In this document: in pieces, positions 19,765-63,271 of the stretch | Layout of the letters: each line of letters opens with the position of its first letter | How positions within the stretch are numbered: position 1 is the stretch's first letter | Source: Anastatus disparis | Lineage: Eukaryota > Arthropoda > Insecta > Hymenoptera > Eupelmidae | Assembly (NCBI GenBank): GCA_017163975.1 | Contig: JAFFSR010000370.1 | Coordinates: forward strand, 2,530,001 to 2,594,000 | DNA length: 64,000 nt | Direction of reading: 5' to 3' | Program-made: the position numbers and the translations under genes | The notes under the pieces: generated by a model | The model's input: the letters and a program-made list of their open reading frames with translations, nothing else | Told to the model about the DNA's origin: nothing | Databases searched by the model: none

Positions 19765-20070
19765 ATGTGGGGACCATGTAAATGGTTTTGTATTGCGCAA
19801 GCGCGAATCGTCTTCATCATTGTTAGAGACGAAGCAGCGGCGTTGTATTAGTAGCGTCTGAACCTTTTAAGATACAAGTTCGACGCGTAAGCCGGTGGTT
19901 GCTGGCGAAATATTAATTGAATAAAGAATTAATATTCACATTTAGTTTGTTGCAGATTTATTATCTACCTTCCTTTAACACGCACAATATCCAGGTTATA
20001 GGTCCTGGATTAATATTAACTGGAGTCGGATATATTATATCATTTACAACCACATACACTAACCTATATT
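19765..20070 (+). mobile_element. Putative 5' LTR end and primer-binding zone of the gypsy-type element
   Basis: From TGTGGGGACC the base composition changes sharply. An AATAAA follows (19,920), then 'acctatattggtgacttcc' at about 20,072, which resembles the LTR/internal junction of many insect Ty3/gypsy elements ('TTGGTGAC...'). No matching 3' LTR was found downstream of 26.9 kb, so the LTR call and its limits are tentative. Confidence 0.35.
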
Positions 20071-21681
20071 GGTGACTTCCTTGGTAGGAGGTTTTTCTTT
20101 CTTTTGTCTGCAACATGAGAGCCGTTTCGCCTTGGGTCTTTGGATTTTTGAAAAGGGGACCCTCAACGCCTGGTGCAATTAAGAAGAGTGTACGAAGAGG
20201 ATTTTCTTTTTTAGAGGTTCTGTGGGCATCACCCTTTTGCCCACGAGGTTGCAACGTAGTTCGCAGCCATCGTCTTGCATCATCTTTCTCTGCACATCGG
20301 GCGGCCATCGCTTCGCATCGTTTTTGTCTACACGTCGACAGCGGCCAAGCGAGGCTTCTCTACAGCACAGCGAAGGTATTAAGGTATTTATTTAGTTTTT
20401 GCGAAATTCGCTCCTTACTAACATAGTATCATCAAGAGATACATATTTGTTTGAATACCTTGCGCTTATTTATTCTCAAGTGAATTTAACGTTTAAAAAA
20501 GCGTAATTTTGTATATAAAATACGAGCGCATATATTTTTTTTGCTGTGCGGGAAAGCATCTTGACGGCCATGTTGGCGTCATTTTTATATATACACAGTA
20601 TATAGAAGCTTTTTGACGGCCATATTGGCGTCGTTCTGTGTTATGTAACAAGAAGGCGGTTTAGACGCCATTTTGTATTTTAACGCGTCGATTGCGTTAC
20701 ACGACTTTCGTCAACACACGCAACTCGATTAGATTTTCTTTTTGATGACGTACTTCCGGGACGCGGCGTGCGTTTTAAGCTTTGTAATGTGAAATTTTCG
20801 TTCGTGTTTTTATAACTAACATTTTGCGTTGGAGCGAATTTTAACTTAATTAGACGTTTGCTTCTTGGTCAAAATAGTAAAATTTAATTTTTTCCTTTTT
20901 TCAAAGAAATTTCTTCGCTAAAGTAAATTAATTTTTTTTAATTAACTTGAAAATTTAAAGGAATAAAGTCTATTTTTTTTAAATTTTTATAAATTTATTT
21001 AAAGTGCGATTTGACAAGATTTTTTTCTTTGTCATTAAAAAACCAAGAAGCAACATAAAAGACCGAAAAAGTCAAGCCTGTATTAAATCAAGTTACTGAA
21101 AATCAATCTAATTTGAATCATGAAATTGTAATTGTTAAAATGAATTATTTCTTTGAATATTAAGTATATTTTACGGCTTGAATTTCGCTCTTTGTATTAA
21201 GATGCTACGCACGACCAGCCGATTTTCTAGTCAGTTTTAGATAGAGAGAAAATTAAACTTTAAATAGTATTTCATTCTTTTTGCGATAACAATTTTCGAT
21301 CTCGTAAAGGAGCCCGCAGGTCAGTGGACTAAGAATTTAAATAGTGTCATTTGAATAGTATGCGGTGTTCATTCGGTTTGGAGTTTGTCGGGGCGGTCAC
21401 CTGGATACTTAAGGTGCCATCCTTGTCCACCTGGCTGAATTGACCTCTGGCAGATTTCCAGCTTGCTGCGTGAACATTTGCTGTTTGATTTTAATATTGT
21501 AGTAAGTTTTAAATGTTTTAAAATATTGAACCTTGATTTTGGTCCAGTGACTTGGTTTGCCCCCTGTGTGAGTTTGTGTATGCACGAGTGTGTGATAAAG
21601 AATTGTGATGTGGTGACTCAGACCAGCTGTTAGTGTGGGTACTGAGCACAGGAGTGTTAAAAAGCGTTTTGTGAATTAGTT
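20071..21681 (+). other. Leader region of the gypsy-type element, no clear gene
   Basis: GC-richer than the surroundings. A phrase 'ttgacggccatgttggcgtc' is repeated near 20,561 and 20,612. Frames are short. It could be a long untranslated leader with decayed 5' gag, or a different fragment. Confidence 0.4.
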
Positions 21682-22975
21682 ATGCCAAATATTGAGCATT
21701 CGCCCCCCGATCAACATTCTCGGACTAGAAGCCTAGCGATTTATAAAATAACTCCACCTGAAACCGAGGTACTAGAGATCGGTAGTGGGAGTAATGAGGA
21801 CAATAGTTCAGGTAGCTAAGGAAAAAAAAGTAACAAAACGCCTAAAACGACAAAGAAGACCACAGATAGCGAAATAATAGGGTTATTAGAAGAAAAATTG
21901 GCTTTTATAACCAATGCGCTGGACAAGCTTGCACAGGCTGCTGTTGATCAACACAAACAAGCCCCCAACGTTGGCACTAGCTATTCCCAGGAAACAATAC
22001 CTGTTATTGCACTCAATTCTGATGATGTGACGGTATCTGCAATGTCAACTATAACGGTATCTGCTTTGGTCCACACGCCACCTGTGTATACGAGTGCTGG
22101 GGTTAACTCTCCTGCAACAACGACTTTTTCTCGGCAAGAGTTGCCATTAATCAATACAGGGCAAAACTCACAAAATAATTCATCAGCTAAAATCAAGTTT
22201 CTACCGTTATGGAGAGATGAAGTCGATACGTGGTTCTCTCTCTTAGAAGTACAGTTGTCACGTAGAAATGTATGCCGAGACGAAGATAAATTCTGGATTC
22301 TGTTACAGAATCTTGGCAAGGATAAGGTGCAGTTGTTTAAGCATACAATTAAACGTTCACCCCCCAGGCTCAAAGTATACTGACCTAAAGCAAGCTGTTA
22401 TTAAACAGTATGCACAGTCTCCTGAGCAAAAATTGGATAAATTATTTGCTGATCAAAAGATGAGTTCAATTGGTCCTATGGATTTCTTTCATAGACTAAT
22501 TGACCTTGCAGGTGTTTATGTACCTAGGTCCACCATATGGAAGGTCTGAAAAGAACGACTTCCTAAAGAAATATTTCTGTATTTAGGCCCAAATGCTGAT
22601 CTGTTAACTGAGCAGATGCTCCTTGATCAGGCACAGAAGATCTGGGAAACTTTTCAGAATAAGGAAAACGTTGTGCATTCTGTCGCTCAGCAACCTAGCA
22701 ACATCTCAGATATAGAAAGTAGAATTGAGGCTAGAGTTGAGGCCTTGGAGAGAGCTTCTAAAAAACGCCAATCTGATAGAAAACAGAAACAGGGTAACGA
22801 AAAAAAGGTAAAGCGATGCCAAAGATAAAGATGCCAAAGATGGTTCAGTGAACTTATGTTAGTACCATAAGAAATTTGGTAATAAAGCCCTGAAATGCAT
22901 AGAAGCATGTAGTAGATATGCTGAATTTACCGCCCTGGCTAATAAGAAAAAGCCAGATCAGGGAAATGCATAAGA
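21682..22975 (+). pseudogene. gag: Gypsy-type Gag, broken
   Basis: ATG at 21,682 opens a Gag-like frame that carries a nonsense TAA at codon 46 (21,817-21,819), continues in frame to about 22,360, shifts by one base in a C-run (ccccccagg), stops again at 22,547-22,549, and continues in pieces to about 22,970. The middle shows the retrotransposon Gag capsid pattern: WRDEVDTWFSLLE, DKFWILLQNL, YTDLKQAVIKQY, RLPKEIFLYL. Near the end 'YHKKFGNKALKC' with a following Cys matches the arthropod gypsy pattern YHRRFG--A--C--PC, a likely zinc-binding tail. Gag builds the intracellular particle. Confidence 0.85.
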
Positions 22976-24895
22976 TCTGCTGTAGCGGAGGTATCAGCAG
23001 ATAATAGTAAAGGATCAGCTCGCCTCCATATCAAAGATTTAATCAGTAAGGATCTTTTCCTGATTGACACTGGCGCAGAAGTTTCTCTGTTACCTCGAGG
23101 TTCTCTTAAGTTGGATCATACTCCCAACATTAAGTTATATGCAGCTAATGACACTTTGATTAAGACTTATGGAACTATAAGTAAGAAGTTAGATATAGGC
23201 ATTGATAGAATTATAGTGTGGAATTTCATCTTTGCAGATGTGCCTTACCCTATAATAGGAGGAGACTTACTTAAGTTTTATCATTTACTTCCTGATTTAA
23301 AGGATAGGAAGTTGGTTGATGGCAACACACTGCGTTCTGTTAATGCCATAGAGAAAAAAGTTAAATATTTTAGAGTGTCATTGATAGCATCCAATCACAG
23401 CTATGCTCATGTGCTTAACAGGTTTCCTAAAGTACTGGGAGTTGAACAGGCAGCACCTTTGGAAGATCGTGGTGTCAAGCATTATATAAAGACCACTGGT
23501 CCACCGATTGCTCATAGAGCAAGACGTTTATGTCCAATTAAGCTCCAGGCAGCTAAAAAGGAGTTTAAAGAGCTCTGCGATTTGGGCATTTGTCAGCCAT
23601 CAAGTAGCCCATGGGCAAGTCCCATTCACATGGTTCTTAAGAAAGACGGAACTTGGAGAATTTGTGGTGATTACAGGGCCCTAAACCAGGTTACAGTACC
23701 TGATAGGTACCCAGTACCACATCTCCATGATTTCCCATTATTTTCGAGCAGAAAATCTATTTTCTCATCTCTGGATTTAAAGAAAGCTTATTATCAGATT
23801 CCGGTTGCGGAGTCTGACATTCCTAAAACAGCAGTGATAACACCATTTGGCCTTTATGAATATAAAGTCATGACTTTTGGACGGCGGAACGCTGCTCAAA
23901 CATTCCAGCGATATGTCAATAAAGTGCTCGGAGATCTGGAGTTTGTATTCGTCTATATTGATGATATACTCATCGCCTCTTCTAGTGAAGAAGAACATGA
24001 GTGTCATCTTCTTACCGTTTTGAAAAGGTTAGAAGAATCGCATCTCTTACTTAATATTGAGAAATGTACCTTTGGAATAAAGGAATTGGATTTCTTGGGT
24101 TATAACATCAGTGAAGAGGGTTTTAAGCCTTTACCGAGTAAAGTTCGGGCCATCTTGGACTTTCCGAAACCAGAAATCGTAGATCAACTTCGTCGTTATA
24201 TGGGAATGATCAACTTTTATAGGAGATGCATCCCCAGCGCAGCTCACACGCAGCGTTTATGAAATCAACATCTTAAAGATTGTCGAAAGAAAGATAAACG
24301 CCCTGTTAAATGGGATCCTGAAAGTGAGACTGCGTTTGAAAAAAGTAAAAAAGATTTAGCTGAAGTCACATTTTTAGCGTATCCTGACGATAGTGCTAAA
24401 ACACGGTTGATCACGGACGCATCGGACTTTGCTATGGGAGCTGCCTTAGAGCAGCATATTCGTGGTGAGTGGCGACCTTTAGCCTTCTTTTCTCGTAAGC
24501 TAACGCCAGCGCAGAAGAATTATTCAGTGTATGATCGAGAGCTTACAGCTATTTTCGAAGCATTGAAATACTTCCATTATTTTGTCGAAACGAGACAATT
24601 TAAAATATACACTGATCATAAACCGTTGGTTTTTACCATGTCGCAAAGCTTGGAGAAAGCTTGTAGCCGTAAGATCCGTCAGTTGACTTATATTGCTCAG
24701 TTCAACTGCGAGATCTGTTACATAGAGGGCGAGAGCAATACAGTCGCTGATACTTTATCACGAATACAGAATATAGCTGAAGTTAAAATACTGAACTTAA
24801 ATGAGGTAAAAACTTGTACTTCATTTAATCAGTTAAACCCAAGAGTCGATGCTTTCCGTTTTTGCCCCTGTGCAACGGATATAAACATTTATTGA
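22976..24895 (+). pseudogene. pol: Gypsy-type Pol: protease, reverse transcriptase, RNase H
   Basis: One frame, broken by a TGA at 24,260-24,262. In order: aspartic protease with LIDTGAEVSLLP (about 23,060); reverse transcriptase with WRICGDYRALN, SLDLKKAYYQIP and the catalytic YIDD (FVYIDDILIA, about 23,950), then NIEKCTFG and LDFLGY; RNase H with ITDASDFAMGAAL, YDRELTAIFEALKYF, YTDHKPL and ADTLSRIQN (24,400-24,770). Order and motifs are those of Ty3/gypsy. The catalytic residues visible are intact, so decay is recent or mild. The start of pol relative to gag is obscured by the gag breaks. Confidence 0.93.
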
Positions 24896-25680
24896 CCATC
24901 ATAGACAGATATACGAGATGGCCAGAAGCTGTTCCTATTAAAGATGCGTTGGCGACAACGGTAGCTAAAGCCCTTGTTGAAAACTGGATTTCGAGATTTG
25001 GTGCTCCTGAAGTCATAACTACGGACCAGGGAGCTCAATTTAAGTCACAGATGTTCACTGAGTTACTAAGCATACTTGGCTGTGCTAGGATTCGCACTAC
25101 TGCTTATCATCCTCAGGCTAACGGATTAGTTGAGAGGTGGCATAGATCATTAAAGGCCGCTCTTCGTTGCCACGCTGATAATGGCAACTGGGTTGACTCT
25201 CTTCCGTTGGTTTTACTTGGTTTGAGAACTTGTGTGCGTAACGACACTCAAGCGTGTCCTGCCGACTTTGTTTACAGGTCCGGTCTGCGAGTTCCTGGGG
25301 AATTCTTCGCTTCTTCAGACCGTGAGCCGTGCAAATCGTCGTTCTTAGAAGAATTTAGAGCGTACATGGGGGAGTTAAGACTGGTGCCAGTTCAGCACAA
25401 CAGTGCGATCAAAGCGTTTGTACTTAAAGATCTTGACACGTGTTCTCACGTGTTTCTCAGAGTAAAAGCTATTAAACCAACTCTCGATAGGCCTTACTCA
25501 GGCCCTTACAAGGTGATTTCCAGAACTCCTACTGGCAGAAATTTTGTCATAGAAGTGAAAGGTGTTAACAAAACTGTCGCCGCCGAATTGCTTAAGCCAG
25601 CGTATGAATTGTTTGACGACACGGATGAGGATACTCCGTCGGAAACACAAGCTAATGAGGAACCACAGCTGGATAACTGA
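24862..25680 (+). pseudogene. Gypsy-type integrase lacking its zinc-binding N-terminus
   Basis: [20 protein letters not shown], then [10 protein letters not shown] (second catalytic Asp) and [15 protein letters not shown] (catalytic Glu) form the DDE core; a C-terminal domain ([20 protein letters not shown]) follows. The first Asp is probably in VDA just upstream, in the other frame, so a 1-bp shift lies near 24,860. The HHCC zinc domain expected between RNase H and core is missing; only about 25 residues separate them, so a deletion of some 120 codons is likely. The frame ends with TGA (25,678-25,680), and the same frame continues into the kinase. Confidence 0.9.
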
Positions 25681-26901
25681 ACAGTTGTGCAGGTGCAGGT
25701 GTATATTGGTCCTAACGCTGTGAATTCCAGCGTTCACGACTCAGATACGGCGAATTTAGCTCCAGATAATGCTGTTGCCGACCTGGAACCACAACGCAAC
25801 ACTGACTCTGACAACGCTATTGAACAAGCGGCTAATCATGAATTACACCGCAATATCGATGCGGATGATGATATCATTGCCTCTGACGACGTTTTAGACA
25901 GAGTTGACGATAATAATGAGACTGTAGCTAGCGAAGATCCTCCAGATTATCCTATAGATCTTATCATTGCTGATAATCAAGGACAGAGATGGTCTTGCGG
26001 AAACAAGATTCATCAAGGTAAATTTGGTTTAATTTTGGAAGCCCTGGCTTGTGGTGATTCTACTCACGAGTTTCCATCAGCAATTCCCAAGTTTGAATTA
26101 GTTAGGAGATCTCGTTTGGCTACTGAAACTAACTTTTATCTTAAGCGTGCCAGCTTTAATAAACTGGAAAGGTGGTTAAATCAATTCCAGCTTCCTGCTC
26201 TTGCTATTCCTAGATTTTTAGCGCAAGGAGAGTTCTTAATTAATGAGGACTTATATAGATTTGTAATCATACAGAGATACGGTGCTAATCTAGAGAAAGT
26301 ACCAAGTGATTCCGATCGAAAGTTACCTCTGCAGCAAGTACTTGCAATTGCATGGCAGCTTACGTTGGCCCTTGAGTTTATGCATAATTCTAATGTTGTG
26401 CATACTGACCTTAAACCATCTAATATTTTGTTTGATTTGGTGAAACCAGATCAGGTTTACCTAATCGGTTTTGGTCAAGTAACTACGGTATATTCTGGTC
26501 CATTAAAATCAGATTTATCGAAAGTTCAGAAGGGATATTACTTGTATAGAAGCAGAGACGCCTATAATGGTATGTACACCAAATGCGGCGATATGGAATC
26601 GCTCATATATAACATGATTGCTTGGGTAACTGGATCTTTGCCATGGATGGGGTCACATAGGATCCAGGCGTTACAATCACACAAAACCCAAGCCTTTAAT
26701 GATATACCTGCATTTTTACAGGTCGTTTTTGACGCAGCTGAAATACCTAGTGCTTTCGCTAAGTGTATGGAAACATTGGCACATGTTGGCCATAATCGTG
26801 CTGTCGACTACCAGCGAATTGGTAATATTCTTTTCGACGGAATGATAAAATGTAATTTTATTCCTGACATAGGATTAGGATTTAATTCAGATCTATTATA
26901 A
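25681..26901 (+). CDS. VRK-like (pseudo)kinase domain fused in frame downstream of integrase
   Basis: 404 open codons in the same frame as integrase, separated from it by one TGA. Residues 1-105 are acidic and Asn/Asp-rich. A kinase domain follows: glycine loop GNKIHQGKFGLILEA, candidate VAIK lysine in AIPKFELV, ETNFYLKRAS, LEFMHNSNVVHTDLKPSNIL (catalytic loop), PDQVYLIGFGQVT (activation segment), GDMESLIYNMIAWVTGSLPW and AKCMETLA. Spacing and wording match vaccinia-related/casein-kinase-1-like kinases, where these read VHGDIKASN, VYLVDYG, GDLEILGYCMIQWLTGHLPW and AKYMET. The metal-binding Asp of DYG is Gly here, so it is probably a pseudokinase. The first in-frame ATG lies inside the domain (FMHNSN), so independent translation is unlikely; a Pol-kinase polyprotein is inferred. 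There are no introns, which suggests capture through RNA. The frame is intact although gag and pol are broken. Confidence 0.85.
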   Translation, partial: TVVQVQVYIGPNAVNSSVHDSDTANLAPDNAVADLEPQRNTDSDNAIEQAANHELHRNIDADDDIIASDDVLDRVDDNNETVASEDPPDYPIDLIIADNQGQRWSCGNKIHQGKFGLILEALACGDSTHEFPSAIPKFELVRRSRLATETNFYLKRASFNKLERWLNQFQLPALAIPRFLAQGEFLINEDLYRFVIIQRYGANLEKVPSDSDRKLPLQQVLAIAWQLTLALEFMHNSNVVHTDLKPSNILFDLVKPDQVYLIGFGQVTTVYSGPLKSDLSKVQKGYYLYRSRDAYNGMYTKCGDMESLIYNMIAWVTGSLPWMGSHRIQALQSHKTQAFNDIPAFLQVVFDAAEIPSAFAKCMETLAHVGHNRAVDYQRIGNILFDGMIKCNFIPDIGLGFNSDLL

Positions 26902-26974: not shown

Positions 26975-27008
26975 TAATTTTCTTCCTTCTCCCCATGTTA
27001 TTCTGCAG
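26975..27008 (+). promoter_or_regulatory. Strong 3' splice acceptor
   Basis: Pyrimidine-rich 'tttcttccttctcccc' followed by 'ttattctgcag' and G. It stands 107 bp after the kinase stop and 5 bases before an ATG, which would suit a spliced subgenomic message as in env-bearing gypsy elements. No matching donor was identified. Confidence 0.4.
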
Positions 27009-27013
27009 GTGAC

Positions 27014-27154
27014 ATGGATGAGTTAGACAGAACCATTGAAGAACTATAGCGTTTTAATGAAAAGACCAACCAACTGTTTGTTGAGATAGTAAAATGTAAA
27101 ATAGGTCGTGCGAGCAAAAGCGTAGTTTCAAGAAACTTATATTGTTTGCTATAG
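27014..27154 (+). pseudogene. Small downstream frame after the kinase, one internal stop
   Basis: ATG just after the splice acceptor reads MDELDRTIEEL, a TAG at 27,047-27,049, then RFNEKTNQLFVEIVKCKIG... to a second TAG at 27,152-27,154. It looks like a short helical peptide of 46 codons interrupted once. No family is recognised. It lies in the env position of the retroelement. It may be chance. Confidence 0.25.
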
Positions 27155-28059
27155 AAAAATGTAAAATATTGCATTTTTTTCTTTTGTACTTAGAAAATAA
27201 GTATTTACAAGCAACCACCTTAGTTTTATACGCGCTTATTATTAAAAAAAAAACCTTTAACAGGTACTAGTTTTATATTAAAACTTAACATGTATATACT
27301 ACTCTATATTCTTTATATTTAACTCTGTGATGTTGTATAAACGCATATTACTTAAATTCCCAGTAATAAGAATATCAAATCCCTGTATTAATATTTTTAT
27401 TAGTTGCAAAAATATTAAAAAAACCATTTAGAAAAAAATTTACTTTTTATCTATTTTGATAAATACAATAACTTATCATTTTTATTCTTATATGTATATA
27501 GTTGTTATAAATTAATAAAATTGTTTTTATTATAAAATTCTTTGAAAAAAAGTAAGCATACTTTGTTTATATCTTCTTATATGCAAAACAGATGTTACCT
27601 GATATGTCTGCGACACATCTTTGCGAGTGATGACGATAGAAAGAACTATAACGTAGGTCATTCATTATAGTTATATATATTCATATATAATTTCTACTAT
27701 GATAAATATGTTCCTTCTAAAGTTTCTATAAGAGCCTAATACTAAGACGAGGAAGAGACAGAAAAAAAGTTACTTGCTTTATGAAGGCAAGAAGGAGATA
27801 GAGAGAGGATGTCACTTGCTTTTACTTTTTTAATCATAAATAGCTATAAAAATAGGAATAGGTTATGAAATTAAGATAAAATCAGTTTTCAATTTATTTT
27901 ATTGAAATTTTTTCATAACCAGAAAGGTAACAAAAATTTTTCGGTTATGTAACAACACATTTTTAATAAGCCACAGCAAGTTTTTTGTTTCTTTTTTCTT
28001 TTTGGTTACAACGTTGAGCTTTTTGACTTCATCTGATTGCGCTTAATCGTGGTTTAAGG
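27155..28059. other. AT-rich stretch, no feature seen
   Basis: Probable 3' untranslated or flanking DNA of the retroelement. No 3' LTR, polypurine tract or gene could be identified. Confidence 0.5.
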
Positions 28060-28996: not shown

Positions 28997-29819
28997 AACC
29001 TAAAAAATAAATTTTCACAAACTAAATGTATAAACTTCAATTTATTCATTTATTATAAAAATAAATATTTGACATTTCTAAAAAATTTTATTTGAAAATG
29101 TTTTAATTCTTAAATTTTGTGTACATCATGAATTAATAACACAGGCCAACATGGTTTTGTTGTCAAAAAGTGGAGGGTCATTTCCGAAGTAATTTTTTGC
29201 GTAGAATCCGAATCCGGGGTCCGAATTGCTCTATCACGTCAGGATTTTGAGATATTTGAGGTTTTTTACCCAAAAAATGGCGTTTTTGGCTACTTTTAAG
29301 GTTATGTACAGAAGAGACAAAATTTTTTGGGAGTTTTTTTTTAGTTGCATCTTATAGCACTACTCTTCCTCTTTAATTTAAGAGTCGCAGAGTTCAATTA
29401 CGATTTTTCTACACCATGTTACGCCAATTTGAAATCACGAGCGGGAGTCCCTTCGCCAATATTAAAACATGTTTTCTTTTTAATTTTGCCCCGTCTCACT
29501 TTGGAATTGCTTTAAGCATACATTTCTTTAGTGTGAATCATTTAGTATAATTTTGCCCCGTCTCATTGATATACAATTTTTTATTATTTGTACAAAAAAG
29601 ACCATTTGTATTGATTCTGTATTTATTGTAATCGCAAATAAATCATTTTTTTAATAACATTTTAAGCAACAATTTACTAGATAGCTCTTAATTGTTCATT
29701 CATGGTGCCTTATTTTTTGGAAAAAATTTTGTGAATATTTGTATTTGATCTGTTGGTTAACAACTCGCTGGAGGTATAAAGTATTAAATTAAATATTCTA
29801 ACTGTTGATCATTTCAATA

Positions 29820-31517
29820 ATGACCTCGCGTAAGTGTTTAAATAATCCTGACAGCTTTTGCTACATTTGTAGTCGCTTCGTGTTCGCAAAAAATGCGATG
29901 AAAATCAATGAAACGATAAAAATATTTTATCTTAATTACTTCAATATTTCGATAACTAATCAGGATAAGTCTTGGGTTCCACATACGGCTTGTAAATCAT
30001 GTGTTGAAACATTAAGACGTTGGTATAATGCCCATAAAGAAGTAACACCAATGCCTTTCAAAACTCCTGCAATTTGGTGTGAACCTGTTAGCCACAATGA
30101 ATGTTATTTCTGTTTAACCAAAACATTTGGATATAATATTAAAAATGCTTGTAATATAAAATATCCGAATGTAGCAAGCGTAACGAAGCCTATTCCTTTT
30201 GCATCTGGTGATGTTCCTCCAAGCCCTCCATTTGTAAGAATAAATATTGAAGACCATACAGTCTGTGACGATATTGAAAATCAGGATTTTGAAGACATCG
30301 AATCAACCTCTGATGCTCCTATTTTATTTGATCAGGCTTCTTTAAATGATTTAGTCAGAGATTTAGGCTTGTCGAAAGAAAAATCTGAGTTGTTAGGATC
30401 AAGACTTCAAGAGAAACACCTTCTTGCTCCAGGAACTACTTTTAGTTGGTATCGTAATCGAGAGAAGGAATTAGTTGAGTATTATTCTGCATGTGATGAA
30501 TATGTTTTTTGTAATGATGTTAAAGGCTTAATTGAAAAATTAGAACTTCCTTATGATACTGATCAATGGAGATTGTTTATTGATTCCTCAAAAACAAGTT
30601 TGAAAGCAGTTTTATTGCATAACTCAAATAAATATGCGTCAATACCTATTGCTCATTCTGTACACCTAAAGGAATCATATGAAAATGTAGAAACTATTCT
30701 TAAAGCAATAAAATATGAACAGCATAAATGGGAAGTATGCGGAGACTTAAAAATGGTTTCAATGCTGCTTGGACAACAATTGGGTTATACAAAATATCCG
30801 TGCTTTATATGTTTGTGGGATAGCAGAGATAGAGTTAAGCATTACGTTACAAAGGATTGGCCTCTTCGTAAAACTTTAAAACCTGGAGATCCCAACATTA
30901 TTCAACAACCGTTAATTGACTCTAAAAAAGTTTTGTTGCCTCCGCTTCATATAAAATTAGGATTAATGAAGCAATTTGTAAAGGCTCTTGATACCGATGG
31001 TGCATTATTTCAATATCTTAGAGATAAATTCCCTTATTTAAGTGAGGCGAAGATAAAAGAAGGAATATTTGTTGGACCACAAATAAGAGAATTAATGAAA
31101 ACAACAGAGGTTGAACAGGTTATGACAAATGTAGAAAAAGAAGCCTGGATTAGCTTTTAAAAAGTTGTTAAAGGATTTTTGGGTAATAATAAAGTTAGTG
31201 ATTACAAAGAAATAGTTGACGATATGATTGAAAAATTTCAGAATTTAGGTTGCAATATGAGCGTAAAATTGCATTATTTACACTCTCATTTAGAATGGTT
31301 TCCAGAAAATCTAGGTGCCGTAAGCGAAGAGCAAGGTGAGCGATCTCATCAGGACCTCAAAGAAATGGAAAGACGTTATCAGGGTAAATGGTCTCCAACA
31401 ATGTTAGCGGACTGTTGCTGGTGTCTTCAACGAGATGAGCTAAATGTTCGTCATAAAAGACGGTCTGGGTCAAGATCTTTACTAGATCAAAAAAAAAGAT
31501 TTCATAAGTTAAACTGA
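29820..31517 (+). pseudogene. Zinc-finger DDE transposase, one nonsense codon
   Basis: From ATG 29,820 a 565-codon frame is interrupted only by TAA at 31,158-31,160 in ...EAWISF. N-terminus: CYIC (about residue 15), HTACKSC and CYFC, a probable zinc-binding module. Core: FIDSSKTSLKAVLLHN with the first Asp; WEVCGDLKMV with the second; then a CxxC (CFICLWDSRDR), HYLHSH (an HxxxxH pattern) and EEQGERSHQDL with a candidate Glu. A CxxC and HxxxxH between and around the second Asp and Glu is typical of CMC (CACTA/Mirage/Chapaev) and Transib/RAG1 transposases. I know similar proteins as uncharacterised, widespread arthropod sequences. Start chosen at MTSRKCLNNPD, where family similarity begins. Nearly intact, so young. 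Confidence 0.85.
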
Positions 31518-31530
31518 AATAGTTTCTAAT

Positions 31531-31775
31531 CGTGAGAGGCGAGGGGACTCACGTAAATTAAGCACCCCGATCGTGAGAGGCGAGGGGACTCACGGAAATT
31601 AAGCACTCCGATCGTGAGAGGCGAGGGGACTCACGTAAATTAAGCACCCCGATCGTGAGAGGCGAGGGGACTCACGTAAATTAAGCACCCCGATCGTGAG
31701 AAGCGAGGGGACTCACGTAAATTAAGCACCCCGATCGTGAGAGGCGAGGGGACTCACGTAAATCCAGCACCCAAA
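31531..31775. repeat. 41-bp minisatellite, six units, each with a hairpin
   Basis: Units start at 31,531, 31,572, 31,613, 31,654, 31,695 and 31,736. Each contains CGTGAG...CTCACG, a 6-bp inverted repeat around 'aggcgagggga'. Units are head-to-tail without spacers, 14 bp after the transposase stop. Confidence 0.95.
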
Positions 31776-32498
31776 AGGGAACAGATTTTACTACGTCCAC
31801 GTCGTTGTTCCTGGGTAATGCTAAATGTAAAAAAAAGTTTAACTTGAAATGCACTTGAAGATCAAGCTGAAGGTCAAATTCAATGTCACGATACCTGTGT
31901 AAATATAAATTACTATAATGTATTATGTTTATCGTAACAACAAAAGTTATTAGATAGCAGAAAATGAAAATATGTTTCATATTTGCAATGTTTTTTGAAA
32001 ATTTTTATACGCCATTTTGAATCCGCCATCTTGAATTTGAAAATTTTAATATCTCAACTTCATATTCGTAATCAGTAACCCCAAAAATCCCCAAGTAAAA
32101 ATTTTGAAGAAAAAATACCCAGTACACAAATGTCTGCCTCAACGTATTCAATGCAAATGGTCATGCAATTAATAGGACATATCTCGTAATTTCAAATTGG
32201 CGTAACTTGGTGTAGAAAAATCGTAATTGAACTCTGCGACTCTTAAATTAAAGAGGAAGAGTAGTGCTATAAGATGCAACTAAAAAAAAACTTCCAAAAA
32301 ATTTTGTCTCTTCTGTACATAACCTTAAAAGTAGCCAAAAACGCCATTTTTTGGGTAAAAAACCTCAAATATCTCAAAATCCTGACGTGATAGAGCAATT
32401 CGGACCCCGGATTCGGATTCTACGCAAAAAATTACTTCGGAAATGACCCTCCATTTTCCAACAACTTTCATGACCCCAATATTTGTAGGCCTGTGTAA

Positions 32499-57087: not shown

Positions 57088-57225
57088 GATAACTCTTTAT
57101 CGTCTTCCAATGATGTTAAAATGTAGCGTATATATAATCGATATATATTATTACTTCTATGTTTTTAGTAATACATATAGATATATATTAAGATTAAAAG
57201 AAAAAATATAGTTGATCTGTTACAG

Positions 57226-60200
57226 AGTGGTGAAGATGTGGAGCGAGAAGTGGAGGAGCCACAAGAAAGACCAATATTCTTAACTGAAAACCAAACTTCC
57301 CGATTTTACCAAAGGTTTAATGCAGAAGGTGTAGAGATTTCGGGAAGAATATCATCACCACCAGCAGGAGCAAACATTTTTGAGTGGTTAAATGGATCTT
57401 TAGATGATCTGCGTAATCAATTAGTGAATGGGCATAGTCCTTCCGATTTTATAGGTGTAACGATACTATCTGATCATTTTGTTCATGGACCATTATGGCT
57501 ATCTTTCAGACTTATTAGAAATTTCACCACTCAAGATTTGTCGGAAATGATATTTAGTGTTGCACAGAGTTCTCAAGACTTTGACATAGATGAAAACTTT
57601 GTGATCAAGTGTGTTATAGTGCTGGACATGAGGGAAGACGGACGTGTTCGATTAAGTGATAATCATGTGTACAAAAAATCCATTTTAACTATACGCAACG
57701 ACGATAATCTTTGCTTTCCGGGATCATTAGTTACGGCACTCGCCTATGCTGTAAGAGGACAAATTCGCTCTGGTACACTACACGATTACTGGAATAGTAT
57801 TAGACAGCACAATAGTAGGGAGCAAAAAAGAGCAGCTCTTGATCTCATTGATCAAGCACAGGTTACTATACCATCAACAGGGTGTGGTTTACAAGAAATT
57901 CATCAGTTTCTAATTTTTCTGGCTACAAAAAGCACAGCTATTGTGGTTTACTCTTTCCGGAATTTTGGGTGTGGGGATACCTCTTTATGATGGTACAAAA
58001 GTTGTAATTGATACATACCAAAACATATCTTATACACTACGTATAATGTATTATGAAAATTAAGGACATTATCAACCTATTCTAAACTTGACTGGTGCAG
58101 CCGGTAGTAGAGAGTATTGCATACCATGTAATAAAAGTTATAAGTTCGCTATGGATCATAGGTGTTCTAATAGATGTTTTAAATGCATGCAATCACCAGT
58201 TTGTGACAACAGTGCGGATATAAAAAAAGTGCTTAAATTGCTTCAGAGAGTTTTTTGGTAATACATATTTCAAGAACCATTCGAAATCAGGATCGTTTAA
58301 AAGAAACGTAAGTGTTTGTAAGGCGGTAAAATTTGTCAAATTTGTTGTAAAACTATCCGTGTAAAAAACCGCGGTGAAAAACATGAATGCGGAGTTATAT
58401 TTTGTGACATTTGTAACAAACGGCTACCGATCAACCACTTTTGCTATATTGAGCCCATAGAGCAAAGTAAGGAAAGATCTAAAATATTATATTTATTTTA
58501 TGATTTTGAAACACAACAAGTTTGTAGTTTTTGTCTAGAGGATACTAATATATCAAATATGTGTGAAAAGTGTGGTATTCGTGAATTTGTATTTCAAAAA
58601 GATCCAGTAAAACAATTTGTCGGGTTAGCTCTATCACGACGTGAAAAGTTTAAAAAAGTTATTTGTATAGCACACAATTCGCAAGGGTTTCATTGTCAAT
58701 TTGTATTCAAGTATATCGTAGAAAACCATTGTTTACGGGAGAAATCAATGGTGATTTTAAACGGTTCCAAAATAATTCTGATGCAAATTTCAAGTGTTAA
58801 ATTTATTGATAGTCTAAATTATTTTCATATGCCACTATATGATTTACCAAAAACTTACGGGTTGTCAGATATAGAAAAAGGAACTTTTCCACATTTATTT
58901 AACACAGAAGAAAACCAATTATATATCGGTCCTTTACCGAGCCTAGATATGTACGGTGTCGATGGTATGAACAGTAAAAAAAGAGAAAAATTCATAGAAT
59001 GGTATATTCGACAGACAGATACAGGATGCATATTTAATTTCCAAGAAGAAATCGTAAAATATTGTAAACAAGATGTTAAAATACTGAGAGAGGCCTGCTT
59101 AGAATTTCGAAAAAATTTCATGAAGTTTAATGTAGACTCATTCGAAGAGTGCACAACCATAGCTTCATCGTGTATGCGTGTTTACAGGAAAAAGTTTAAA
59201 AAAAAAAAATCAAATAGGTGTTATGCCTGTGAGAGGGTACAGAATGGCTGATAATCAATCCATTAAAGCTATACAATGGCTTTATTGGATGGAACAAAAG
59301 GTTCTACAGCGTGGAATCGAGCATGCAGGGCATGGACGCGAGAGGAGACTTATTGAAGGTATTCTTGTTGATGGATACGCTTTACCACGGACAGATGAGG
59401 ATAATAATGGTACAGTTCTTCAATTTCACTAGTGGTACTGGCATGGATGTTCACGATGTTACAGAATAAATAGAAATGAAATATTATCATCAGGCGAACT
59501 GTTTGACGACAGATATGAAAGAACATGTGCTATATCCTTAAAAATTAAAACATGCAATTATACACTCATTGAAATATGGGGTTGCGAATTTGAGCGGGAA
59601 ATTTCACGTAACCAGGAATTGAGAGAATATATAGATGCGAATATCGATATCGTTTATCGTAAACCGCTGGACCCCCGTGATGCATTTTTCGGTGGTAGAA
59701 CTGGTAACACAATAAAATTAAACGAGTGTGAGGGTGATGAAAAAATTAAATACGTTGATGTATGTTCATTATATCCATACATTTGTAAACGAGGTAAATA
59801 TCCTGTGGGTCATCCAACGTTATATGTAGGTAATGAAACTCAAACTCTCATAGGGGGTAACAACGACATCAGTAACGTTGAAGGTCTTATCATGTGTGAT
59901 GTACTCCCGCCCAGAAATTTGTATTACCCTGTTTTACCAGTTAAAATGCATGGGAAATTAATTTTTCCTCTTTGCCGTACGTGCTGTTAACAAATGATTC
60001 AAATGGATTGTATGCACGATAATACGATAGATTGGGTATTACACGGAACATGGGTGTCGGAAGAGCTTAAAAAAGCTGTAGAAATAGAATAAGTGATTCA
60101 AAATGTTTACGAAATATGGCAATATGAGATGGTCCTGAAGTGGTTGTAAACAGTATCATCCCAGTCAACGATCATGTATTGTACGTGAACTGGCAGTATC

Positions 60201-62110: not shown

Positions 62111-62544
62111 ATGGAGCGGAAAACTAGAGGTCCTATCGGGCAAAAGCGTACAGATATTTTAAGAGCGCTTTACCATTTAAACGGGGAACAACGCGCTGCC
62201 GTGCTCCGTAAGGCCGATCCCAAATTGGTCAGATACATTTGTGAGTGTGCTCTCACGTGCTGCGCGGTAACGTTTCTTTCAACAGAACACACAAAACTCG
62301 ATTACGTAAACACGCAGGCATTCTTAGACGATTGGCAAGTCCTCAAAAGAATCTAGCTACGAAAAAGAAACTTATCGTACAGCACGGCGGATTCTTTCCA
62401 ATATTGTTTGCACTCATTGGTACAGTATTGTCAAGTCTTATATCAAAATTTAAAAAAAATGGAACACACCAAAAAAAATTATTTTGTTACCACAAGAGAG
62501 TGTGGAACGCTTACAACAAAAACTTTTCACCAACGCTGGGTTAG
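62111..62544 (+). pseudogene. Small basic Polinton-block protein with hydrophobic C-terminus, frameshifted
   Basis: ATG 62,111: RTDILRALYHLNGEQRAAVL, LVRYICECAL, then a frameshift near 62,245-62,260 into RGNVSFNRTHKTRLRKHAGI, KKKLIVQHGGFFPILFALIG. The layout (helical N-part with ICECAL, Arg/Lys-rich middle, Gly-rich hydrophobic tail) recurs in insect Polinton-like loci as I know them, and recalls small basic or membrane-active adenovirus core proteins. That comparison is only inference. The second-frame stop (62,544) overlaps the next gene. Confidence 0.6.
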
Positions 62545-63271
62545 AGTCGAAACACCAGGAACTGCTGTTAGCAGGCTGGATGCAGAGATGAGTGATATTT
62601 TGAATTCTACGGACGATTTGAGCGAGCGGGATAAATGGCAACGATATTCTCAAGCATTACAACGTTATCTACATTTTAAAGATATTAGTAACAAGAAGAC
62701 AGAAATTACAAAGAAAGACGATGATATGCAAGATGCTGATATTATCAACGATGATAATAATGATGATGCTGAGGCAGAGTCAAAACGAGTCGTCAAAGAA
62801 TTAGAAGATCGTGTAGATGCACGAATTTTGGAAAGTGTACCTTTAAGATACCGGTCCAATGCAGCGGGTCTTTTACAACATTTACGTGGCACAGGCATCG
62901 TCACTTGGGATGGTAATGGTGCAACATGTATAGATGGCATTTCTATCCGTGGCGCAAATATTATCGACTTGGTTAACGACGCTATGAGAAAAAGACAACA
63001 CGTGAATCCAGCAGGTGCTCGTCAGTTTGCTCTGGCACTTCGACGTGTCGTGACGCCTCGGCTTTTTATTGGGAACGATCGTGTGTTACAGATAATCGAT
63101 GAGGCTTCTCCTTTCGCTTCTCCAGAGTCTGGTAGTAGCAAATCAAAATCCGGTGGTAGTAACAAACTCAGCGAGGAAGAACAAGGGCGTAGAAAGAGAA
63201 AGAGAAGAAAGAAAGTCGCCAGATCACCGAAATCAGGGGAAACATGGAGTCGTCTGGGCACAAAATTCTGA
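62459..63271 (+). CDS. Conserved Polinton-linked protein of unknown function, 270 codons
   Basis: ATG 62,459 (MEHTKKNYFV) to TGA 63,269-63,271. The frame is open upstream, but the ATG fits the gene order. Segments: DAEMSDILNSTDDLSERDKW and QALQRYLHF (helical), an Asp/Asn-rich acidic linker (residues 80-105), VPLRYRSNAAGLLQHLRGTG with WDGNGATCIDG, GANIIDLVNDAMRKR, and a very basic tail (RRKRKRRKK) that suggests nucleic-acid or nuclear targeting. I recall similar proteins in insect Maverick loci but know no function. The frame appears intact, unlike its neighbours. Confidence 0.7.
   Translation: MEHTKKNYFVTTRECGTLTTKTFHQRWVRVETPGTAVSRLDAEMSDILNSTDDLSERDKWQRYSQALQRYLHFKDISNKKTEITKKDDDMQDADIINDDNNDDAEAESKRVVKELEDRVDARILESVPLRYRSNAAGLLQHLRGTGIVTWDGNGATCIDGISIRGANIIDLVNDAMRKRQHVNPAGARQFALALRRVVTPRLFIGNDRVLQIIDEASPFASPESGSSKSKSGGSNKLSEEEQGRRKRKRRKKVARSPKSGETWSRLGTKF

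Follow-up and report, generated by a model that had tools for sequence, protein, structure and literature searches.

Can a protein kinase be an integral part of a retrotransposon polyprotein, and from where would it have come? The question is raised by a 64,000-nucleotide stretch of the Anastatus disparis genome (contig JAFFSR010000370.1, positions 2,530,001 to 2,594,000; hereafter, the window), in which the integrase frame of a Ty3/gypsy retrotransposon is ended by a TGA codon (25678-25680), and the same frame then stays open through a kinase fold (PF00069, 2.1e-13). A preliminary description of the window had pointed out this arrangement, and its reading of the frame holds, its statement that no ATG comes before the catalytic loop included: the first in-frame ATG of the kinase frame, at 26380, lies seven codons ahead of HTDLKPSN. 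The length of the open stretch needs correcting, from 404 to 406 codons. That description also proposed that the kinase could be made only as an extension of Pol, and that a host VRK mRNA had been captured in the position of env. Our reading, to which we assign a probability of about 0.88, is that a VRK-type domain is fused to Pol in a group of related elements and was captured from a host-type VRK. The animal sequence searched was the 939 Mb genome of A. disparis itself, and viral contigs were scanned besides.

A VRK-type kinase at the C-terminus of Pol

When compared with solved structures, the window domain (25981-26898) matched VRK1 (2.6e-37), VRK2 (6.2e-29), VRK3 (1.7e-18), and CK1 (3.1e-14), and the corresponding domain of a related family, C, gave 1.8e-67, 5.4e-55, 5e-30, and 9.1e-18, respectively, placing both nearer VRK than CK1 over the domain. 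The window kinase query returned at least 102 scored matches in the genome and the family C query at least 120, two of which were pieces of the host gene. Among the 102 matches listed, 12 lie within stop-free frames of 1438-1499 amino acids (aa). Twenty copies were fetched with their flanks, including 10 of these 12, and the five long frames that were read encode protease, reverse transcriptase, RNase H, integrase, linker, and kinase as one polypeptide, in support of the claim that the kinase is made only as a Pol extension. The kinase comprises ∼310 aa and stands behind a linker of 96-156 aa. The preliminary description had suggested looking for kinase copies flanked by gypsy integrase; of the 124 integrase matches listed, 66 have a same-strand kinase match no more than 3 kb downstream. 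At most, the remaining 58 are without a kinase; one copy counted among them (L036) carries a D-type kinase once read.

The surrounding element is of the Ty3/gypsy type. RVT_1, RT_RNaseH, and rve occur in this order in the window and within one frame in the relatives read, and pairs of long terminal repeats (LTRs) with target-site duplications (TSDs; GACC, GGAA, and TGTA) were found in all three A1 copies examined. The usual order in the fetched copies is gag, Pol in an overlapping frame, and, in many, a third open reading frame (ORF3); DUF7041 was detected in the gag of the two relatives scanned (1.4e-11 and 7.4e-12). A domesticated host gene would be a single locus without element features, whereas the copies here are many, dispersed, and accompanied by gag, pol, and LTRs. 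Nor is the window kinase frame a product of chance, because it has at least 102 matches and its ratio of nonsynonymous to synonymous substitutions (dN/dS), as measured in families A, C, and D, is far below that of neutral simulations (see below).

Kinase-bearing copies fall into family A, to which the window copy belongs (A1 and A2), and families B, C (C1 and C2), and D (D1-D3). Pol core identity is 59% between C and A and 62% between C and D, the two pairs computed; kinase identity between families is 24-33%, and 47-52% between A and B. No kinase was seen in the copies read from family E (L030, L032, and L034), F (L033), or G (L035), as judged from frames of at least 90-100 aa, with the stretch between Pol and ORF3 read in L030, L032, and L035. 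Two outcomes had been named in the preliminary description as fatal to its proposal. A solitary kinase beside a host locus is contradicted by the number and dispersal of the copies, and an absence from other copies of the element applies to those read from the related families E, F, and G but not to the nine A-family relatives fetched, all of which have the domain. No relative was found in two scans of viral contigs. Taken together, we have very little doubt that in families A-D a VRK-type domain forms the C-terminus of Pol.

The site of attachment can be followed through a short motif in the Pol tail. In families C and D, VRK-like sequence starts 15-18 residues beyond a K-x-I-R-F motif, and in families E and F, a K-K-V-x-F motif is followed by 9 and 12 residues, respectively, before Pol ends. 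Pol of E and F thus terminates so near this motif that, for C and D at least, the kinase can be placed just past the point at which an older Pol ended. In G, K-K-V-R-F is present in a shifted frame (L035), and no motif of the K-[KQR]-[VI]-x-F type was found in the family A Pol tail. As a separate observation, K-[KQR]-[VI]-x-F recurs in the disordered Pol tail of L022, L024, L025, L027, L033, L034, and L035 (families C-G). It resembles the RVxF motif for docking of protein phosphatase 1, which would make a phosphatase site adjoin the kinase.

The copy in the window

The copy in the window is a single, broken representative of this large element family, with all parts on the forward strand. Its 5′ LTR (19766-20068; 303 bp, TGTGGGG...CTATA) was located with the LTR of a relative as the blastn query (91.5%), and its ends were set by comparing copies with 4-bp TSDs. 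The remains of a DUF7041-type gag (21661-22970), frameshifted near 22364, were recovered by tblastn with the gag of L010 as three pieces in three frames; the DUF7041 match itself is weak (1.4e-4, below cut-off). The first part of pol (22946-24862; residues 1-639 of a relative) covers protease, reverse transcriptase, and RNase H (RVT_1, 6.4e-32; RT_RNaseH, 4.7e-29) and contains an in-frame stop at 24260-24262; the protease is presumed from a DTGAE motif alone. The second part (24862-25677) contains the integrase core (rve, PF00665, 4.4e-14), which lies inside the frame 24829-25677, and the integrase C-terminus. At 24862, where the tblastn alignment breaks, ∼139 Pol residues are gone, corresponding to the N-terminal part of integrase (residues 640-778 of the relative).

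Beyond the TGA, the kinase frame (25681-26898) is in the same frame as integrase and has its own stop at 26899-26901. It consists of a loosely constrained linker (25681-25971) and the VRK-like domain (25972-26898), within which the β3 lysine (26089-26091, in AIPKFE) is kept, as seen by alignment to VRK1 and host VRK, as is the aspartate of the catalytic loop HTDLKPSN (26401-26424); GFG replaces DFG at 26467-26475, with loss of the metal-binding aspartate. A remnant of the start of ORF3 follows (26978-27061; a 28-aa match, 82%), the remainder of ORF3 being gone, likewise in the A1 copies L009-L011. The 3′ untranslated part (27062-27353) extends to the point at which homology stops, and no 3′ LTR was found for this copy.

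The TGA is damage in the window copy and not a feature of the element. No other copy that was read shares it, and read-through, which the preliminary description had considered, is not needed because a sense codon occupies the position in nine of nine fetched A-family relatives. In one of these, L011, a different stop is found four codons farther on.

Catalytic motifs and selection on the domain

Active kinases have a glycine-rich loop (G-loop), a β3 lysine, an HxD motif, and the aspartate of DFG. Family C keeps the set: HNDIK and DFG are present in five of five copies (L023 departs at the second residue before the asparagine end of the loop), and the G-loop and the lysine of VIKVE are intact in the two copies aligned. 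The other three families do not keep it. Family A retains HTDLKP(S/A)N but has GFG in nine of nine copies; family B has HANIKPSK and GFN in both copies, the HxD aspartate also being lost; and family D has HTDIRPSK and GLG in all three copies, and its two aligned copies, L025 and L027, lack the glycines of the G-loop. Several of the G-loop and β3 rows were taken from the alignment by eye, the automatic motif search having missed or misplaced them. Judged by these motifs, the kinases of A, B, and D resemble pseudokinases, and that of family C looks active; the term pseudokinase in the preliminary description therefore fits the window family, with its lost DFG aspartate, and does not fit family C.

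The preliminary description had also suggested comparing dN/dS among copies. For the kinase, values between subfamilies were 0.09 for C1-C2 (bootstrap 0.06-0.14), 0.13 for A1-A2 (0.09-0.20), and 0.12 for D1-D2 (0.08-0.18), in agreement with a maintained domain; family B has no subfamily pair. Neutral simulation gave medians of 0.83-0.88 and a minimum of 0.49 over 3 × 200 runs. Other regions gave 0.04-0.06 (Pol core), 0.17-0.32 (linker), and 0.14-0.22 (gag), so the kinase is less constrained than the Pol core. Ratios for pairs of recent copies were higher and noisy (0.08-1.64; 26 pairs, two without synonymous change), as expected because copies decay after insertion. Set against the simulations, the low subfamily ratios indicate constraint on the kinase also in A and D, and purifying selection thus keeps the domain in these two families despite the apparent loss of catalysis.

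Origin of the kinase domain

The host VRK gene (L029) was assembled from homology and splice signals into seven exons encoding 530 aa, with six GT-AG introns, five of them within the kinase domain. The element copy, by contrast, is intronless, and a host-type VRK mRNA is therefore the probable donor, as the preliminary description had proposed. The family C kinase is nearer to host VRK (48% identity) than to human VRK1 (37-38%), host and human VRK being 49% identical; families A and B are 32-34% and family D 29-30% identical to host VRK. By eye, similarity to host VRK extends from ∼20 residues ahead of the kinase core to the end of that core, and the C-terminal tail of host VRK is absent from the element kinase.

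The third open reading frame

The proposal that the kinase occupies the position of env did not survive inspection of the relatives, in which the kinase belongs to Pol and ORF3, where present, comes after the kinase. It forms one frame of 587-602 aa in 11 of the 20 fetched copies (L012-L016, L020-L023, L025, and L028; for example, L013:7793-9568 on the forward strand and L020:374-2143, L022:546-2351, and L025:210-1970 on the reverse strand) and in two pieces in two more (L017 and L019); it also occurs in L031 and L035. No ORF3-like frame of at least 150 aa was found in the remaining seven (L009-L011, L018, L024, L026, and L027). In subfamily A1 (the window copy and L009-L011), ORF3 was removed by an internal deletion relative to A2. 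Copies L009, L010, and L011 have differing 4-bp TSDs, LTR pairs that are 88.8-99.7% identical, and a retained kinase; subfamily A1 still spread after losing ORF3. Either these copies could dispense with ORF3 while retaining the kinase, or ORF3 is supplied to them in trans. Copies with a kinase and without ORF3 occur in several families, those of A1 at independent sites.

As to what ORF3 encodes, no Pfam match reached the cut-off, two weak and unrelated hits falling below it, and a profile of six ORF3 proteins found leucine-rich-repeat proteins (best 2.9e-4). None of six ORF3 proteins tested has a membrane segment (highest 19-residue hydropathy 1.05-1.43), and no envelope match was obtained, so an envelope function is unsupported. 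A tree of ORF3 resolves only the grouping of A with B. The leucine-rich-repeat-like ORF3 stands in the env position in the kinase-less families too, and in one family E copy (L031, C44:255500-262000), Pol continues into ORF3 as one 1477-aa frame. F-box-like and RRM-like stretches were noticed in ORF3 by eye alone, and no search supports either.

Other features of the window

About 2.4 kb downstream of the element end, a 452-aa open frame (29802-31160) has no Pfam match, and a tandem repeat with a 41-bp period occupies 31488-31813, its inner copies being 96-98% alike and its outer copies 68-70%. An open reading frame at 58322-59248 matches DNA polymerase type B, organellar and viral (PF03175, 6.6e-17), and is perhaps Polinton-like; no Pfam match was found for the nearby frames at 57181-57990 (269 aa) and 62357-63271 (304 aa).

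Discussion

The least probable account of the window, that a host VRK pseudogene happens to lie beside a gypsy fragment, draws on the window alone, where a stop separates the two frames and the element is broken. It is refuted by the recurrence of this order at dispersed sites, with long uninterrupted frames around 12 of the 102 matches listed. How often the kinase was acquired is a closer question. In the kinase tree, the element kinases are on one side of a branch, with host VRK and VRK1 on the other (93/90), and a single capture is likely. We consider it improbable that there were two or more captures, in which C took up VRK more recently, and is still active, and A, B, and D descend from an older event. 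The greater identity of C to host VRK would suit such a history, but catalytic loss alone could explain the faster divergence of A, B, and D. Families A-D also share features, read from the alignment by eye, that speak against it: AW before the catalytic loop (AL in host VRK and SL in VRK1), ES after GD or SD of the activation region (EI in host VRK and VRK1), and N-x-x-P past the last helix, which is absent from host VRK, the VRK1 row ending earlier. Families C and D moreover have the same junction after the K-x-I-R-F tail.

For the function of the domain, the best mechanism we can offer is control, by a domain tethered to Pol, of barrier-to-autointegration factor (BAF) at the preintegration complex, put forward tentatively and by analogy. 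As to history, one host-type VRK mRNA was probably joined to the end of a disordered tail that Pol already had, and catalysis was then lost at least once. In the proposed mechanism, the kinase would enter the preintegration complex together with integrase and there act on BAF, a VRK target. The family C enzyme might phosphorylate BAF or chromatin, releasing BAF at the right time or modifying chromatin, and the pseudokinases might, while tethered to Pol, bind BAF or host VRK, so that host VRK would not strip BAF from the element's cDNA. A retrotransposon may in this way have hijacked the VRK-BAF switch, with an active-kinase lineage and pseudokinase lineages that block host VRK, convergent with vaccinia B1 and B12, a possibility for which we would not claim even odds. 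BAF genes are present in the genome (PF02961, six pieces over the cut-off). According to PMC4063967, VRK1 and vaccinia B1 phosphorylate BAF, inhibiting its DNA binding, and BAF associates with retroviral preintegration complexes and protects them from autointegration in vitro. PMC6395007 and PMC9175622 describe vaccinia B12, a catalytically inactive VRK relative, as forming complexes with VRK1, with a fall in BAF phosphorylation.

Other roles for the domain can be imagined. The kinase may act on chromatin or the cell cycle, through histones or VRK targets other than BAF, and steer the site or timing of integration. This idea, also a doubtful one, is encouraged by the place of the domain in Pol, which is that of the chromodomain of chromoviruses, and by the chromatin substrates of VRK1, but the host VRK tail past the kinase domain is absent from the element, and A, B, and D are without catalytic motifs. 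Alternatively, the pseudokinase may be a structural spacer, or a module for Pol folding or dimerization, without a host target. Such a role is compatible with the location at the C-terminus of the polyprotein and with the purifying selection seen in A and D, whose catalytic motifs are lost, but families E, F, and G manage without the domain and family C retains the full catalytic motif set, and we think it unlikely.

Several points weigh against the explanation favored here. Support in the kinase tree is not starred and comes with a long-branch warning, and a grouping of family C with host VRK is not rejected (approximately unbiased (AU) test, p = 0.077), which is also what multiple captures would allow. 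The Pol-core tree leaves families F and G outside the kinase-bearing group but puts kinase-less E with A and B, inside the bearers (82/84), with two rows kept in it that are a rearranged copy running from Pol into ORF3 (E_L031) and a copy not cut at the core end (B_L019). A tree in which the kinase bearers form a single clade is, however, not rejected by the AU test (p = 0.107), and the kinase was either gained after E split off or gained earlier and lost in E. In comparisons between families, saturation affects the synonymous sites (dN/dS of 0.52 for the C1-D1 kinase pair, bootstrap 0.32-0.78), and dN/dS is therefore silent on the period just after capture or loss of catalysis. Finally, VRKs reportedly disrupt the preintegration complex of murine leukemia virus (Suzuki 2010, cited in PMC4063967); an active kinase would therefore be costly, and the BAF idea by itself does not account for family C.

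Among known systems, chromoviruses are Ty3/gypsy elements with a chromatin-related, host-type chromodomain at the C-terminus of integrase and Pol; the domain described here is instead a kinase behind a linker. Errantiviruses (gypsy, ZAM, and others) carry env. Like them, the present element has gag, pol, in many copies a third frame, and LTRs with 4-bp TSDs, but its ORF3 gives no envelope-like signal. With VRK1, VRK2, and VRK3 of the CK1 group, the element kinase shares alignment to VRK1 over nearly its whole length and, in family C, VRK-type stretches (VIKVEP..NGPLFVEMHFY and GTLEFMSRDAH); it differs in being intronless, inside Pol, and tail-less, and in the aspartates lost from A, B, and D. 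Vaccinia B1 kinase and B12 pseudokinase likewise place a VRK-family kinase and a pseudokinase in a foreign genome (PMC6395007 and PMC9175622), but as separate genes of a DNA virus without fusion to a polymerase. No description of a protein kinase in a retroelement Pol was found in a search of titles and abstract openings that did not cover most subscription papers.

A host-type kinase has thus been taken up by a retrotransposon and is present in four deeply diverged families, under purifying selection in A and D with catalysis seemingly lost. BAF, a host factor of retroviral preintegration complexes, is regulated by the family from which the domain came, and the element therefore offers a natural experiment on the roles of kinase and pseudokinase in integration, and it may be a second case, besides the poxviruses, of a mobile or viral genome with active and inactive versions of VRK.

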